The notes under the pieces were generated by a model that was not told the DNA's origin, made no database searches, and was given only the letters and a program-made list of their open reading frames with translations. Position numbers and translations under genes: made by a program. A stretch of DNA of 64,000 nt from the NCBI RefSeq assembly GCF_900217815.1, contig NZ_OBMT01000003.1:186001-250000 (forward strand), in the 5' to 3' direction. Shown here one piece after another: positions 43,453-49,506 of this stretch (position 1 is its first letter; each line of letters opens with the position of its first letter). Origin of the DNA: Rhodobacter maris (lineage in GTDB: Bacteria; Pseudomonadota; Alphaproteobacteria; Rhodobacterales; Rhodobacteraceae).

Positions 43453-44865
43453 TCAGGCCGCGCCGCGCTGGAACACGGTCACTTGATTGCGGCCCTCGGC
43501 CTTGGAGCCCAGGAGCGCGCGGTCGGCCTGATGGATCAGCTGCTCGATCGCTTCGGGCTCGGAGCCCAGATTGCTCGTGCCCCCGCCGATCGCGAGGCCA
43601 ATCGACACGGTGATGTCGAGGCGCAGTCCGCCGGGCAGATTGAAGGGCGTTTCCTCGATCATCCGGCAAAGCCGTTCGGCGGCGATCCGCGCCGCCTCGA
43701 GCGTCGTTTCCGGCATTGCCACCAAAAATTCCTCGCCGCCGATCCGCGCCACCAGATCGACCTGTCGCAGATTCATTGTCAGCCGCCGCGCCACCTCGAC
43801 CAGAACGGCATCGCCAGCGGGATGGCCATAGGTGTCATTGACCGATTTGAAGCGGTCCAGATCGAGCGCCATCAATGCGAAACTGCGCCCCGAAAGCCGC
43901 GAGCGCTCCGCCAGCCGCGCCAGATGCGGCATCGCGTAGCGGCGGTTGTAAAGCCCGGTGAGCGGATCGACCAGCGCGAGCCTCAGCCCGTCGGCCACCC
44001 GTTCGCGCTGCCGGTCGTGGCGGCGCTTGCGCGCGATCTGGGCGCGTAGCCTGAGCGCCGCCTCTTCAGCCAAAGCGGGCTCGGTGAGCCGCCCGGGCGT
44101 GACATCGGAGGCGCCGAGATCGAGCGCCACGGCCGAGGTTTCGCGTGCCGCCTCGGGCACGCCGATGCAGATCACCGCATGGCGCGAGCCGGTGCGCGAG
44201 CGCAGCTCGGACATCAGCCGCAGCCCCTCACCCGGGCGGGTCAAATCGGCGGCGATCACATAGGCATCAAGGGGCGGGCTCTCGGCCGCGGCCGAAAGCG
44301 CTCCCTGATAATCGAGCACCCGCAGCGTATCCTGCGGCAAGAACCGCGCCATCGCATTTTTCCAGCTGACGCAGGTTTCACGATCCGGCGCGACGAGGCC
44401 GATGCGGGCGGGCGGCTCGATGGCCGGGGCCGCCGCCTCGGCAAACCCGAGATCCTGACAGGTGGTTTCGCGCAGCCGCAGTTCCTCGTCGGTCTCGCGC
44501 ATCCGCATCAGCGCGCGCAGCCGGGCGAGCAGCGTCAACTCCTCGAACGGTTTGACGATGAAATCATCGGCCCCCATCCGCAGCGCCTCAAGGCGCAGTT
44601 CGGGTGTGGGAAAGGCGGTGACGACGATCACCGGGAGATGACGGCTGGCCGGATCGGCTTTCAGCCGGCGGCACACGTCCAGACCGCTCATGTCGGGCAG
44701 CTGCACGTCGAGAAGCACGAGATCAGGGCTCTCCTGCGCGACCATGCGCAGAGCCGCCGCCCCGGTGCCGGCCTGAATCGTCTCGTATCGGGCGCCCGCA
44801 AGCTTGACCTTCAACACGATCCGATTGGTCGCGACATCGTCCACGATCAGGACTTTCCCTGCCAT
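43453..44865 (-). CDS. pleD: PleD-type diguanylate cyclase response regulator
   Basis: The 470-aa protein has a first receiver domain (DLVLLDVQLPDMSG with the phosphorylated aspartate, and IVKPFEE). A degenerate second receiver occupies about residues 150-280. A GGDEF domain has an intact active site, GGEEF. An RQVD inhibitory site lies five residues upstream, so product feedback is likely. PleD proteins make cyclic di-GMP after phosphorylation by a histidine kinase. No kinase gene is next to it. It converges on the Spy-like gene and is divergent from the DUF3572 gene. Confidence 0.92.
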   Translation of the reverse strand: MAGKVLIVDDVATNRIVLKVKLAGARYETIQAGTGAAALRMVAQESPDLVLLDVQLPDMSGLDVCRRLKADPASRHLPVIVVTAFPTPELRLEALRMGADDFIVKPFEELTLLARLRALMRMRETDEELRLRETTCQDLGFAEAAAPAIEPPARIGLVAPDRETCVSWKNAMARFLPQDTLRVLDYQGALSAAAESPPLDAYVIAADLTRPGEGLRLMSELRSRTGSRHAVICIGVPEAARETSAVALDLGASDVTPGRLTEPALAEEAALRLRAQIARKRRHDRQRERVADGLRLALVDPLTGLYNRRYAMPHLARLAERSRLSGRSFALMALDLDRFKSVNDTYGHPAGDAVLVEVARRLTMNLRQVDLVARIGGEEFLVAMPETTLEAARIAAERLCRMIEETPFNLPGGLRLDITVSIGLAIGGGTSNLGSEPEAIEQLIHQADRALLGSKAEGRNQVTVFQRGAA

Positions 44866-45236: not shown

Positions 45237-45245
45237 GGGGGCGTG

Positions 45246-45950
45246 ATGACGGATATTGTCGCGATCCTCTTTGACAAGGATGGCACGCTTTTCGATTTCG
45301 AGGCGACCTGGGGGGCCTGGGCGCGCGGGCTGATGGCGGATCTGGCCAGTGGCGATGCGGCGCAGATCGGGCTGCTTGCGGACGCGATCGGGTATGATCT
45401 TGTGGCGCAGCGGTTTGCGCCCCGGTCACCGGTGATTGCCGGGACGGTCGCGCAGGCCGCAGCCTTGATGCTGCCGTACCTGCCGGGGCGGGAGCTGGGC
45501 GAGCTTGTGGTGACACTCGATGCCGCGGCGCTGCGCGCCCCGCAGGTGCCTGCGGTCGATCTGCCGCGCTGTCTGGGCGGGCTGCGCGCATCCGGGTTCC
45601 GGCTTGGCGTGGCGACGAATGACAGCGAGGCCTCGGCGCGCCACCAGCTTGCGCGGGCAGGCGTTGAAACGCTGTTCGACTTCGTCGCGGGCTACGACAG
45701 CGGCTTTGGTGCGAAACCCGAGCCGGGCCCGCTGCTGGCCTTTGCCGCGCGGCTGGGCGTGGCTCCGGAGCAGGTGGCAATGGTGGGCGACAGCCTGCAT
45801 GATCTTGCCGCCGCCCGCGCCGCCGGCATGCTGGCTGTCGCGGTTCTGACCGGCCCCGCAACGCGCGAGACGCTGGCCCCCGCCGCAGATCTGGTGCTTG
45901 AGACGATCGACGGGCTCGCCCCCTGGATCGCCGGTTCCCCACAGGTCTGA
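45246..45950 (+). CDS. HAD-family phosphatase (phosphoglycolate phosphatase-like)
   Basis: The 234-aa hydrolase has all HAD motifs: nucleophile FDKDGTLFDF at residues 9-18, a threonine-type motif in GVATNDSEAS, a lysine in FGAKPEPG, and GDSLHDLAAARAAG. The general type is phosphoglycolate phosphatase or beta-phosphoglucomutase-like; the substrate cannot be set from sequence. GTG at 45243 is an alternative start. It is probably cotranscribed with the DUF3572 gene. Confidence 0.88.
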   Translation: MTDIVAILFDKDGTLFDFEATWGAWARGLMADLASGDAAQIGLLADAIGYDLVAQRFAPRSPVIAGTVAQAAALMLPYLPGRELGELVVTLDAAALRAPQVPAVDLPRCLGGLRASGFRLGVATNDSEASARHQLARAGVETLFDFVAGYDSGFGAKPEPGPLLAFAARLGVAPEQVAMVGDSLHDLAAARAAGMLAVAVLTGPATRETLAPAADLVLETIDGLAPWIAGSPQV

Positions 45951-46007: not shown

Positions 46008-47735
46008 ATGACGGAACGGCTCATTTTCATTTTCATCGGCCTTGTCGGCGGGCTCGCCTTCTGGGGGCTCACCGAGGCGCCCGAGGTGTTCCGGGCGGCG
46101 TTCCTCTGGCTGCCGCTTTGCGTCGCTGCGGCGGCGTTCTTCTTTGCGCTGCTGTCGATGCTCTCCGATCTCGGGCTGCGCCGGGCGCTGTTGCTGGCGG
46201 CGGGCATCGCGCTTGTGACGGCCGCGCTCTCTGCGCTTGAACGGAGCGCTTTCGCGAACGCGGCGCAGATGCTCGACACCGGCCACAACCTTGCGGCGCT
46301 GATCGTGCTCGGCACGCTTCCGGTGCCCTTTGCGCTCGCTTTCGGGCGCGAGGGGCGGCATGGGCTCACCGATTACCGCATTCTCTTCATGGAGAGCTGG
46401 AACATTGTTGTGCGCCAGCTTGCCGCCTGGCTTTTCGTCGGCGTGGTTTTTGCGGTGCTCTGGTTGATGGGAGCGCTGCTCGATCTCGTGGGCGTGCATC
46501 TGCTCAGTGCCCTTCTCCAGCAGGGGCTGGCGGTCTGGCTGATCCTCGGCGCCACCCTCGGGCTCGGCCTCTCGGTGGTGACGGAGATGTCCGACATGGT
46601 CTCGCCCTATCTTCTGCTGCGGTTCTTGCGACTGCTGACCCCGCTCGTGCTGGCCGTGGTGACGGTCTTCCTCGCCGCGCTGCCCCTGCGCGGCCTCGGC
46701 CATCTCTTTGGCGCGCTCTCGGCGGCCTCGGCGCTTCTTGCGACGGCGCTGGCGGTGATCGGGCTCGTATCGGTGGTGGTCGATCAGGACGAGATCGAGG
46801 AGGCGCATGCGCCGGTGCTGACCTGGTCGGCGCGCGGCCTCATGCTTTTGCTGCCAGCGCTGGCAGGGCTTGCGATCTGGGCGCTGGCCGAACGGGTGCG
46901 CCAATACGGCTGGACGCCGGACCGGGTGGCGGCAACGGCGCTCGCCGGGGTGGTGGCGGGCTATGCGCTAGGCTATCTGGGCGCGCTTTTGTCGGGGCGG
47001 CGCTGGATGGAGAAGCTGCGTCAGGCCAATGTGGCGATGGCCTTCGCGATGATCGGGCTCGCCGCGCTCTGGCTCACGCCGCTGATTTCGCCGGAACGGA
47101 TCGCAGCGCAGGGGCAGCTCGCCCGCTTCGCCGCGGGAACCGTGCAAGCCGGGGCTTTGCCGCTTTGGGAGATGGCGCATGACTGGGGCCGACCCGGGGC
47201 TGCGGCGCTCGCGGATCTGCGCAAGGAGGCCTCGCAGGATGGTGCGCTCGCGGGCCGGCTGGCCCAGCTCGATGCCGCCGAAAACCGCTTCAGCTTCGCG
47301 CGTGCGGCGGCCCCGGCTTCCGTTCCCGTAACCTGGCCCGCGGGGCTTGTGCTCTGGCCCGCGGGCGAAGCGCTGCCCGAGGGGCTTGAGGCCGCGCTGC
47401 TTGCCGCGCTCGAACCCACAGAGCAGGCGCAATGCGCCGCCCCCGCCGGGGCCGGGGCCGTGCCGTCCTGCGCGCTGGTTCTGGCAGATCTGAGCCCGGT
47501 GGCGCCCGGGCCGGAGGCGGTGCTTTTGCGCGCTGCGGAATGGGGCGCGCCGAGCGTGTTCGTGAAGGGGCCGAAAGGCTGGAAACGGGTTGCGGCGCGG
47601 CTTCTGGGCGCGGGCACGGCGCCCAGCGGGACCGATCTGATCACCGCGCTCGAAGCGGGCTCGGTGGCGCCGGTTCCCGTCGACCTTCGGGCACTGCAGG
47701 CGGGCGCCTGGCAGATCATCGTGCTGCCGCAATAA
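46008..47735 (+). CDS. DUF4153 membrane protein
   Basis: The 575-aa protein has about ten hydrophobic helices in the first 360 residues and a soluble C-terminal part. The region YRILFMESWNIVVRQLAAWLFVGVVFA matches DUF4153 proteins. The function is unknown. It stands alone, with a CTAG promoter-like element 26 bases before the ATG and GCAGGAG as ribosome site. Confidence 0.8.
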   Translation: MTERLIFIFIGLVGGLAFWGLTEAPEVFRAAFLWLPLCVAAAAFFFALLSMLSDLGLRRALLLAAGIALVTAALSALERSAFANAAQMLDTGHNLAALIVLGTLPVPFALAFGREGRHGLTDYRILFMESWNIVVRQLAAWLFVGVVFAVLWLMGALLDLVGVHLLSALLQQGLAVWLILGATLGLGLSVVTEMSDMVSPYLLLRFLRLLTPLVLAVVTVFLAALPLRGLGHLFGALSAASALLATALAVIGLVSVVVDQDEIEEAHAPVLTWSARGLMLLLPALAGLAIWALAERVRQYGWTPDRVAATALAGVVAGYALGYLGALLSGRRWMEKLRQANVAMAFAMIGLAALWLTPLISPERIAAQGQLARFAAGTVQAGALPLWEMAHDWGRPGAAALADLRKEASQDGALAGRLAQLDAAENRFSFARAAAPASVPVTWPAGLVLWPAGEALPEGLEAALLAALEPTEQAQCAAPAGAGAVPSCALVLADLSPVAPGPEAVLLRAAEWGAPSVFVKGPKGWKRVAARLLGAGTAPSGTDLITALEAGSVAPVPVDLRALQAGAWQIIVLPQ

Positions 47736-47885
47736 GCCGCGCATGCGACCTGCGTGGCCCGACCGACCCTGCCGGCCCGCGCACACTGAAAAAAACGGGC
47801 CGTGTGGGAGAATCCGCTTCGCTCCCCGGTGCCTCTTCGTGCTTTCTTAACAGCCGAACCTCTAGGCTGCGCGCGTGGAGGTCGC

Positions 47886-48485
47886 ATGCTCGGTGTTGTC
47901 AATAAATCTATCCAATCCTTTTTGAGCTCCCATTACGGGGGGCATGTCTGGCGTGAGGTGGCCGAGCGCAGCAACGTCGACCCGGCAGGGTTCGAGGCGA
48001 TGCTGAGCTATGACGACCGTCTTACCGAGGCGCTGCTCGACGCGGCTGAAGCGGTGCTGGAGACACCGCGGGCGATGATCCTCGAAGATATCGGGGCCTG
48101 GCTTGCGATGACCGAACCGATGCGGCGGCTGTTGCGCTTTGGCGGCGCGGATTACTGGGACTTTCTGTTTTCCCTCGATGAACTGCCCGGCCGCGGGCTG
48201 ATGGCACTGCCCGGGCTTGGCCTGCCCGAGCTGATGCTGGCGACCGAGGCGCAGGGCCGGTTCACGCTCTCCGTGAAGGGCGCGATGCCGGGCTGGGGCG
48301 CGGTTATGGCGGGGCTCATGCGCGCGATGGCGGATGATTACGGTGCGCTCGTGCTGATCGATGCGAGCGGGCGCAGCGGTCCGGTGGAACGGGTCTCGGT
48401 GACGCTGCTCGATATGGCCTTTGCCGAGGCACGGCATTTCGATCTGGCCCTGCCGGCGGGAGTTTTGCGCCATGACCTTGCTTGA
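47886..48485 (+). CDS. H-NOX-like protein without the heme histidine
   Basis: The 199-aa protein aligns along its length with H-NOX (heme nitric oxide/oxygen) domains. It starts LGVVNKSIQSFLSSHYG and has the FLFSLDELPGRGLMALPGL helix. In heme-binding H-NOX the fourth residue of the D-E/N-L-H motif is the iron-ligand histidine; here it is Pro101. The YxSxR heme-propionate motif is also not present. It therefore may not bind heme in the usual way. It overlaps the downstream HNOBA-GGDEF gene by 14 bases, the standard H-NOX/cyclase pairing. Confidence 0.85.
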   Translation: MLGVVNKSIQSFLSSHYGGHVWREVAERSNVDPAGFEAMLSYDDRLTEALLDAAEAVLETPRAMILEDIGAWLAMTEPMRRLLRFGGADYWDFLFSLDELPGRGLMALPGLGLPELMLATEAQGRFTLSVKGAMPGWGAVMAGLMRAMADDYGALVLIDASGRSGPVERVSVTLLDMAFAEARHFDLALPAGVLRHDLA

Positions 48486-49506
48486 TCCGAAGGGCCCGGT
48501 GCTGCCCGGCGCCCCCGAATTGCAGCTGACCCTCACCCCTGCGGTGCTGGGGCGACTGATGCCGCTGTTCCTCTGGCTGGACCGGCGCGGCCGGATTCAG
48601 GCGATGGGGCCGACGCTGGCGAAGATTGTCGGATCCGAGGCGCTGGGCACAAGCTATGCGCGCCATTTCACGTTGCGGCGCGCGCGCGGGCGTGATCTTG
48701 GCCCGGAATCGCTCGCGGACGGCCGGCATATCGCGGTGACGCTGGTGCGTCATCCCGGCTTCAACCTGCGCGGCACGGCCGTGGAACTGCCGGGCGCGGC
48801 GCAACCGGGGGCCCTGCTCGTCAATCTCTCCTTCGGGATCCACCTTTCGGAAGCGGTGCGGTTCTTCGGGCTGACCGAACAGGATTTCGCGGCTTCCGAG
48901 CTGGCGATCGAATTTCTCTTCCTCGCCGAGGCGAAGACCGCGGTACTGAACGAATTGCAGGCGCTGACGCGGCGGCTTGAGGAGGCGCGGCGCGAAGCCG
49001 AGAGCGAGGCGCTCAGCGATCCGCTCACCGGCCTGCCGAACCGGCGTGCCTTCGATGCCGCGCTCGACCGCGCGGTAAAGCTGCTCGCACGTGGTGGGCG
49101 CAGCTTTGCGCTTCTTCATCTCGATCTCGATTTCTTCAAGCAGGTCAACGACAATCTTGGCCATGCCGCAGGTGATACGGTGCTGATCCGCGTGGCGCAG
49201 GTGCTGGCGGAGGAGACCCGGCGCGGCGATATGGTGGCGCGGGTCGGCGGCGACGAGTTCATGCTCATTCTGCGCGGGCCGATCGACGAGCGGCGCGTCG
49301 CCGCCTTCGCAGAGCGGCTGATCGCCCGGCTTGAGGAGCCGATCTTCTATGATGGCCGGCCCTGCTGCGTGTCCGCTTCGATCGGTGCGGTGATCGGCGC
49401 CGATGGCGCGGGCGCGGTGGCCGACCGGATGCTCGCCGACGCCGATTCGGCGCTTTACCGCTCCAAGCGCGCCGGGCGAGGGCGCTGCACTGTCTGCGCG
49501 GAGTGA
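48472..49506 (+). CDS. HNOBA-GGDEF diguanylate cyclase
   Basis: This 344-aa cytoplasmic protein has an N-terminal HNOBA (H-NOX-associated) domain at about residues 15-150 (LGRLMPLFLWLDRRGRIQAMG). A coiled-coil linker (TRRLEEARREAESEALSD) follows, then a GGDEF domain from about residue 180. The active site GGDEF is intact and RRGD forms the inhibitory site. It should make cyclic di-GMP and be controlled by the H-NOX-like partner. The ATG at 48472 overlaps that gene's end, and a longer frame upstream is rejected. Confidence 0.92.
   Translation: MTLLDPKGPVLPGAPELQLTLTPAVLGRLMPLFLWLDRRGRIQAMGPTLAKIVGSEALGTSYARHFTLRRARGRDLGPESLADGRHIAVTLVRHPGFNLRGTAVELPGAAQPGALLVNLSFGIHLSEAVRFFGLTEQDFAASELAIEFLFLAEAKTAVLNELQALTRRLEEARREAESEALSDPLTGLPNRRAFDAALDRAVKLLARGGRSFALLHLDLDFFKQVNDNLGHAAGDTVLIRVAQVLAEETRRGDMVARVGGDEFMLILRGPIDERRVAAFAERLIARLEEPIFYDGRPCCVSASIGAVIGADGAGAVADRMLADADSALYRSKRAGRGRCTVCAE

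Follow-up and report, generated by a model that had tools for sequence, protein, structure and literature searches.

An H-NOX-like protein of Rhodobacter maris that lacks the heme-ligand histidine and is encoded with a putative diguanylate cyclase

The window, as the whole 64,000-nucleotide stretch of Rhodobacter maris DNA analyzed here is called, encodes a protein with a predicted H-NOX fold in which the heme-ligand position is occupied by proline and the YxSxR motif is missing. Its gene overlaps that of a putative diguanylate cyclase. Judged by its sequence, the protein is no local oddity and falls within Group 5, a large set of H-NOX proteins known from earlier work. In the reading tentatively favored here, it may be a heme-free pseudo-sensor that restrains its cyclase. 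The features of the locus, in window coordinates, are as follows.

45243–45950, forward strand: HAD-family hydrolase (Pfam)
46008–47735, forward strand: DUF4153-like protein, the upstream neighbor (DUF4153 22.6 bits, below the cut-off of 27)
47836–47851, forward strand: CtrA-like box TT-N9-TTAAC, with the left TT at 47836–47837 and TTAAC at 47847–47851
47886–48485, forward strand: H-NOX-like (HNOB) protein, P0002, 199 residues (Pfam HNOB 61.2 bits, AF2 model)
48186–48188, forward strand: Pro101 codon, corresponding to the heme-ligand site (Nostoc alignment, clade column, sequence)
48273–48287, forward strand: residues 130–134 (VKGAM), in the place of YxSxR (alignments)
48472–49506, forward strand: protein with an HNOBA-type region, a helix and a GGDEF diguanylate cyclase domain, P0001, 344 residues (Pfam GGDEF, model)
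49246–49260, forward strand: GGDEF motif of the cyclase (sequence)

The HNOB gene starts with an ATG at 47886 and its stop codon ends at 48485. The product matches the Pfam HNOB profile with 61.2 bits and an E-value of 1.5e-16 (cut-off 25.5), which places it in the H-NOX/HNOB family; all 46 of the 46 aligned members of its clade (see below) match the same profile at E≤0.001, and no NCBIfam model matched the window protein at E≤0.01. In a phmmer alignment against PDB sequences, Pro101 lies under the histidine of the NLHAR stretch in the Nostoc Alr2278 H-NOX, which we take to be the iron ligand of that protein, and the neighborhood of the site is free of gaps. V130, G132 and M134 occupy the Y, S and R columns of YxSxR. 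Of the features that mark a heme-binding H-NOX, the proximal histidine and the YxSxR motif are thus both absent in the alignment. The preliminary description of this DNA had asserted both losses, and the gap-free Nostoc alignment, together with the clade column, bears it out. The alternative raised at that stage, that an alignment might place another histidine at the ligand site, was looked for and not found. The protein has four histidines (residues 16, 20, 184 and 196), none of which is conserved among 159 clade rows, and the commonest clade histidine, His2, is absent from it; another histidine as the iron ligand was ruled out on these grounds. At column 2, histidine is present in 142 of the 159 rows and leucine in the window protein, and His2 could be a further point near the N-terminus at which metal or heme is contacted. 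The window protein contains no cysteine, as is true of 22 of the 159 rows, and the commonest clade cysteine column is filled in 79 of 159. The protein therefore has neither a thiolate ligand nor a cysteine/zinc switch of the V. cholerae type, and cysteine redox sensing like that of V. cholerae was ruled out for it.

The AF2 model of the H-NOX protein (pLDDT 91.8) is most similar to the NO-activated human sGC beta subunit (8hbh_B, Z 21.1, rmsd 2.0, 176 aligned residues), followed closely by the Nostoc H-NOX (2o09_A, Z 20.7), and the first row outside the H-NOX family in the fold comparison has a Z of 9.4. The H-NOX fold recognized earlier from the sequence pattern is thus recovered in the predicted structure as well as by the HNOB profile. 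Among human sGC entries, the model scores higher against the activated beta subunit (8hbh_B, 21.1) than against the inactive one (8hbe_B, 19.8), and higher against the activated-side entry 6jt2_B (20.4) than against 6jt0_B (19.2). The Fe(II) and Fe(II)-NO forms of S. oneidensis H-NOX are tied (19.8 and 19.4), and the Manduca entries are mixed. These scores weakly favor an activated-like shape for the model, in the human sGC entries only.

The first 14 nucleotides of the cyclase gene overlap the HNOB gene. Its product contains a GGDEF domain (Pfam, 148.2 bits) with an intact GGDEF active-site motif and an intact RxxD I-site, the two motifs by which it is assigned as a diguanylate cyclase. The model (pLDDT 88.2, pTM 0.59) matches 3ign with a Z of 25.9; the rows shown in that comparison are dominated by GGDEF domains, so that the HNOBA/PAS part was barely probed. 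Against the HNOBA profile the protein reaches 13 bits where the Pfam cut-off is 23.4, and the HNOBA label applied here follows from its relatives, since the profile matches 13 of 28 aligned clade partners at E≤0.01. Of the "usual HNOBA-GGDEF partner" proposed initially, the GGDEF half is secure and the HNOBA half falls short of the cut-off in the protein itself. A second GGDEF protein, with a receiver domain and a GGDEF domain (Pfam), is encoded at 43453–44865 on the reverse strand, 3 kb upstream of the pair. A second cyclase of the receiver-GGDEF kind is also present in P. denitrificans (PMC5588039).

Homologues of the DUF4153-like neighbor are present at 16 of 17 genus loci and at 54 of 141 other clade loci, those of the HAD hydrolase at 78 of the 141 non-genus clade loci, and a NadD neighbor at 2 of 141 clade loci outside the genus. 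The R. maris genome has a single HNOB match, as does each of the 18 genomes of the genus that were examined (its own included). A search of this genome for a second HNOB, FIST/NosP or copper nitrite reductase found none.

The nearest named relatives of the window protein are those of Rhodobacter sp. TJ_12 (73% identity) and of R. capsulatus and R. viridis (65%). HNOB matches at E≤0.001 are present in 296 of 394 Rhodobacteraceae genomes, classical H-NOX included. Among the matches listed, scores run from 146 bits down with classical H-NOX proteins highest, and the lower-scoring loci fetched fall nearly all into one clade. Three of them are classical (L099, 114.6 bits; L101, 101.3 bits; L110, 91.3 bits), so the HNOB score alone cannot separate the clade from the classical proteins. 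Searched across the class, the clade alignment matched 10 of 385 genomes at E≤1e-6; four reach at least 260 bits, all from Rhodobacteraceae and including the window's own, and the other six score at most 119 bits. Among plasmids and chromids, 6 of 72,556 plasmid records match the window H-NOX at 38–45% identity; the copies of P. denitrificans and Phaeobacter sp. G2 in the plasmid collection are clade members with proline at the ligand site.

The family rows were a non-random sample, consisting of the higher-scoring matches listed, the nearest relatives and the genus. For the ligand column, rows shorter than 150 residues, repeats, the loci that duplicate the window (L001 and L181) and two loci with a broken frame (L112 and L064) were set aside, leaving 159 distinct clade rows, the window protein and 158 others. 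A tree of 33 classical and 130 clade rows places the clade on one side of a branch with an SH-aLRT of 99, and the split again received 99 after eight sGC-type outgroup rows were added; these are rapidly built trees in which many branches are weak, 67 of 159 being open in one of them. The ligand column of the clade holds proline in 98 rows, glutamine in 17, histidine in 17, glutamate in 12, arginine in 6, serine in 2, asparagine in 2, and valine, tyrosine, threonine, alanine and lysine in one each, compared with histidine in 37 and glutamine in 1 of the 38 classical rows. Thus 142 of the 159 distinct sampled members lack the histidine, and the question posed earlier, whether the loss is common to a clade, can be answered in the affirmative. 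The neighbors of the site are nearly fixed (L100 in 106 and R103 in 110 of 117 rows). A complete YxSxR motif is found in none of 130 clade rows versus 31 of 33 classical rows, and its tyrosine in none of the 159. P114 is invariant in 46 rows, and G70 and G143 are invariant in all 197 aligned rows, the two glycines presumably lying near the heme pocket or at hinges.

The classical protein L101 has glutamine at the ligand column, retains YxSxR and adjoins an open reading frame with a histidine-kinase-like motif; on its alignment it lost the histidine separately from the clade, and its genome carries a clade member (L102) as well. The clade gene L112, with an in-frame stop, encodes histidine at the ligand column.

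A cyclase gene adjoins the H-NOX gene in 157 of the 158 other clade rows, with a 4-nucleotide overlap in 108, and the sole exception sits at a contig end. GGDEF is present in 156 of 157 partners, the remaining one being cut by a contig end, and the I-site motif in 153 of 156 scored. In 30 printed close pairs (57 prefiltered), the dN/dS of the H-NOX gene ranges from 0.03 to 0.31 and is lower than that of the partner in 26; the values come from the Nei-Gojobori method only, and many pairs have high dS. For the window H-NOX and its two nearest relatives, dN/dS is about 0.21, the same as for the partner. The low ratios indicate that the H-NOX gene is maintained under purifying selection, and a decaying gene was thereby ruled out.

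These characteristics are already in print for related proteins, and the core finding is therefore not new. A 2022 review describes Group 5 H-NOX proteins as a very large group, fewer than 10% with the histidine, mostly with proline and with no conserved cysteine, and asks how they sense anything (PMC8738867). The absence of the ligand histidine was reported for P. denitrificans by Kumar and Spiro in 2017 (PMC5588039) and, in a passage of the same article citing Iyer 2003, for R. sphaeroides. The histidine share of the sampled clade, 10.7%, compares with the "fewer than 10%" of the review. By its grouping with the P. denitrificans H-NOX, its proline and its want of a conserved cysteine, the window protein is assigned to Group 5; nothing essential sets it apart, its peculiarities being Leu2 in place of His2 and the lack of any cysteine.

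A two-state model on three trees gave probabilities of 0.047, 0.038 and 0.055 for histidine at the base of the clade. A model without histidine gain is 12–14 log units worse, and the fewest state changes number 11, compared with 28 losses needed without regain on the same tree. We infer that the histidine-less state was already present at the base of the family-wide clade and that the histidines now found within it were probably regained; as the trees are weakly resolved and share one H-NOX alignment, the result for the base is a lean, not a proof. The earlier suggestion that this pair itself may have switched from NO sensing finds no support in that form, given that base (0.038–0.055 for histidine) and an anomaly already published. 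Histidine goes with Trp132 (8 of 17 histidine rows versus 5 of 142 others, Fisher 2.8e-6; the other 9 of the 17 are without it) and, in an earlier, smaller row set, with Ser8 (14 of 14 versus 45 of 116). Trp132 and Ser8 had come out highest among 836 comparisons (uncorrected p 3e-6 and 6e-6), and the later p values for co-variation are therefore not free of selection. Correlated models outperform independent ones on two trees (p 0.0002–0.0008, from our own approximate Pagel-type likelihood code), and an independent-pairs test of histidine against Trp132 had only two usable pairs and no power. The D. shibae H-NOX (L098) is a clade member with histidine at the ligand site and Trp132, and without YxSxR; its gene is presumably Dshi_2815, being the only HNOB match counted for its genome and in keeping with its place in the order of locus tags. 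A scenario in which the clade ancestor was a heme-free, protein-only brake and NO sensing was re-invented repeatedly through the return of histidine with Trp132 and Ser8, with the D. shibae protein as a re-evolved sensor, is rather unlikely to be correct as a whole.

In the window, TTAAC of the CtrA-like box begins 39 nucleotides before the ATG. Compared with the CtrA consensus TTAA-N7-TTAA(C), as given in PMC4046655 and PMC6180460, the right half is complete and the left half is degenerate (TT only). TTAAC or GTTAA occurs at −110 to −20 in 112 of the 158 other clade operons and not in the remaining 46, and the left TT stands at CtrA spacing in 90 of these 112 boxes versus 18 of 183 other TTAAC in the same loci. 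At −250 to 0, 114 of 158 operons (the window counted) have the element, compared with a mean of 30.5 and a maximum of 42 in 20 shuffles; at −70 to −40, 85 of 158 have it, whereas five shifted stretches give counts of 0–2 and the classical genes 3 of 37. A perfect full CtrA site is present in 1 of 158, no CtrA-like box was found within 150 nucleotides of the P. denitrificans locus, and an FNR-like box is not enriched upstream of clade operons. The box is accordingly not universal, being lacking in 46 of 158 operons and in P. denitrificans. CtrA control is stated for D. shibae hnox and for R. capsulatus rcc02629 in PMC7232146 and PMC9143464, respectively, and the pair may likewise be controlled by CtrA in R. 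maris. The co-variation of histidine, its regain and the upstream box of the operon were not found in searches of an open-licence library that did not target the co-variation by name.

Genetic evidence on proline-bearing members, in that literature, comes only from gene deletion in P. denitrificans (PMC5588039, PMC12582929). The H-NOX of this species (L220) shares 38.8% identity with the window protein and has an identical ELPGR ligand site; its score of 187.4 bits against the clade profile versus 56.1 bits against the classical one makes it a clade member. The hnoX mutant is partially deficient in biofilm and is without BapA, whereas loss of dgcAB leads to overproduction of both, and in the authors' view H-NOX may inhibit DgcA; NO stimulates biofilm formation and is placed upstream of H-NOX, and NO consumption is also altered in the hnoX and dgcAB mutants (PMC5588039). 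A 2025 metabolomics study reports raised acyl-homoserine lactone levels upon hnox deletion (PMC12582929), and a search of a c-di-GMP survey (PMC9756655) yielded no passage on H-NOX.

The reading that we tentatively prefer, at somewhat less than an even chance, is that the window protein is a heme-free Group 5 pseudo-sensor that restrains its cyclase, with the output set through expression and perhaps by a second input. The protein would hold no heme through a proximal histidine and would contact the HNOBA-type region of the adjacent cyclase directly. Without an iron-histidine bond, it may rest in the conformation reached by a classical H-NOX only once NO has broken that bond, by analogy with the H105C variant of sGC beta, which contains no heme and is similar to the activated enzyme both structurally and in its activity (PMC8196705). 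An activated-like H-NOX would restrain the cyclase constantly, by analogy with D. shibae, where the activated form inhibits; constant restraint would also be consistent with the mutants of P. denitrificans. The output would then depend on the amount of the pair made from the CtrA-like promoter and perhaps on a second input. The basis for this proposal consists of the modelled fold, the missing ligand and YxSxR, the intact cyclase motifs, a pairing that is constant among the sampled rows, purifying selection and the upstream box. Counting against it are the weakness of the activated-like match, in a comparison that had no classical control model; the NO response of P. denitrificans biofilm; the absence from the window protein of a plug of the sGC alpha type; the lack of a CtrA-like box in P. 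denitrificans; and the changed NO consumption of mutants that leave direct contact unproven. Between another ligand and protein-only signaling, both offered in the preliminary description, the sequences lean towards a protein-only signal.

Heme might still be bound, either through a different axial ligand or weakly with none, and serve to sense NO or redox state as in the D. shibae relative. That relative belongs to the same clade and is listed in PMC8846402 as a heme NO sensor inhibiting Dgc1; it also lacks YxSxR, so that this motif would not be required if the D. shibae protein binds heme, and NO stimulates P. denitrificans biofilm. However, D. shibae has histidine where the window protein has proline, histidine-bearing members differ elsewhere too (positions 132 and 8), and the window protein offers Leu2, unconserved histidines and no cysteine; retained heme is unlikely. 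The old pocket might instead bind another small molecule that tunes the cyclase, such as an iron-free porphyrin, a hydrophobic metabolite or a quorum signal. The kept fold, the invariant P114, G70 and G143, the absence of an N-terminal plug and the raised acyl-homoserine lactone levels of the P. denitrificans mutant would suit such a role, and the low dN/dS argues for an active one; but the former ligand column varies among proline, glutamine, histidine, glutamate, arginine and others, and no ligand is known; this too is improbable.

A purely structural role, the protein being a subunit of the cyclase or an aid to its folding without signaling itself, would resemble that of the sGC alpha H-NOX, described in PMC8196705 as a heme-free pseudo-H-NOX, and would agree with pairing in 157 of 158 rows and with genes that mostly overlap. 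The P. denitrificans deletion, however, has an effect opposite to the loss of both cyclases, unlike the loss of a needed subunit, and such a role is very unlikely. The co-variation of histidine with positions 132 and 8 lends itself to small, direct tests of which residues turn this fold into a heme sensor or into a plain protein switch.

Among the known systems close to the window pair is that of H-NOX and Dgc1 of D. shibae, with which it shares the clade, the pairing with a cyclase, the lack of YxSxR and a CtrA-like box upstream. PMC7232146 likewise treats the D. shibae protein as an NO sensor inhibiting Dgc1, and direct NO assays are cited for it at review level; the window protein differs from it in the ligand histidine, Trp132 and the reported NO response. 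R. capsulatus H-NOX is treated as an NO sensor by homology with D. shibae in the same source, and has glutamine at the ligand site (L020, L022). Clade members have thus been treated as NO sensors (P. denitrificans, R. capsulatus) despite ligand sites other than histidine. Should the D. shibae site be a rebuilt exception, the analogy with D. shibae would fail for about nine in ten of the sampled members.

The Nostoc Alr2278 H-NOX and sGC beta, the closest sequences with a solved structure, share the fold of the window protein (Z 20.7 and 21.1). The Nostoc protein carries the ligand histidine and a YxSxR-type motif and binds heme, and the window protein lacks the histidine as well as the motif. 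The same combination of histidine, YxSxR-type motif and bound heme is described for sGC beta in PMC8196705. According to that source, sGC alpha is without the histidine (human) or YxSxR (moth) and loses heme because its pocket is occupied by an N-terminal extension. The window protein resembles sGC alpha in the loss of such residues, but it starts level with the Nostoc H-NOX and has no N-terminal plug, and, unlike in sGC alpha, H-NOX and cyclase are separate chains.
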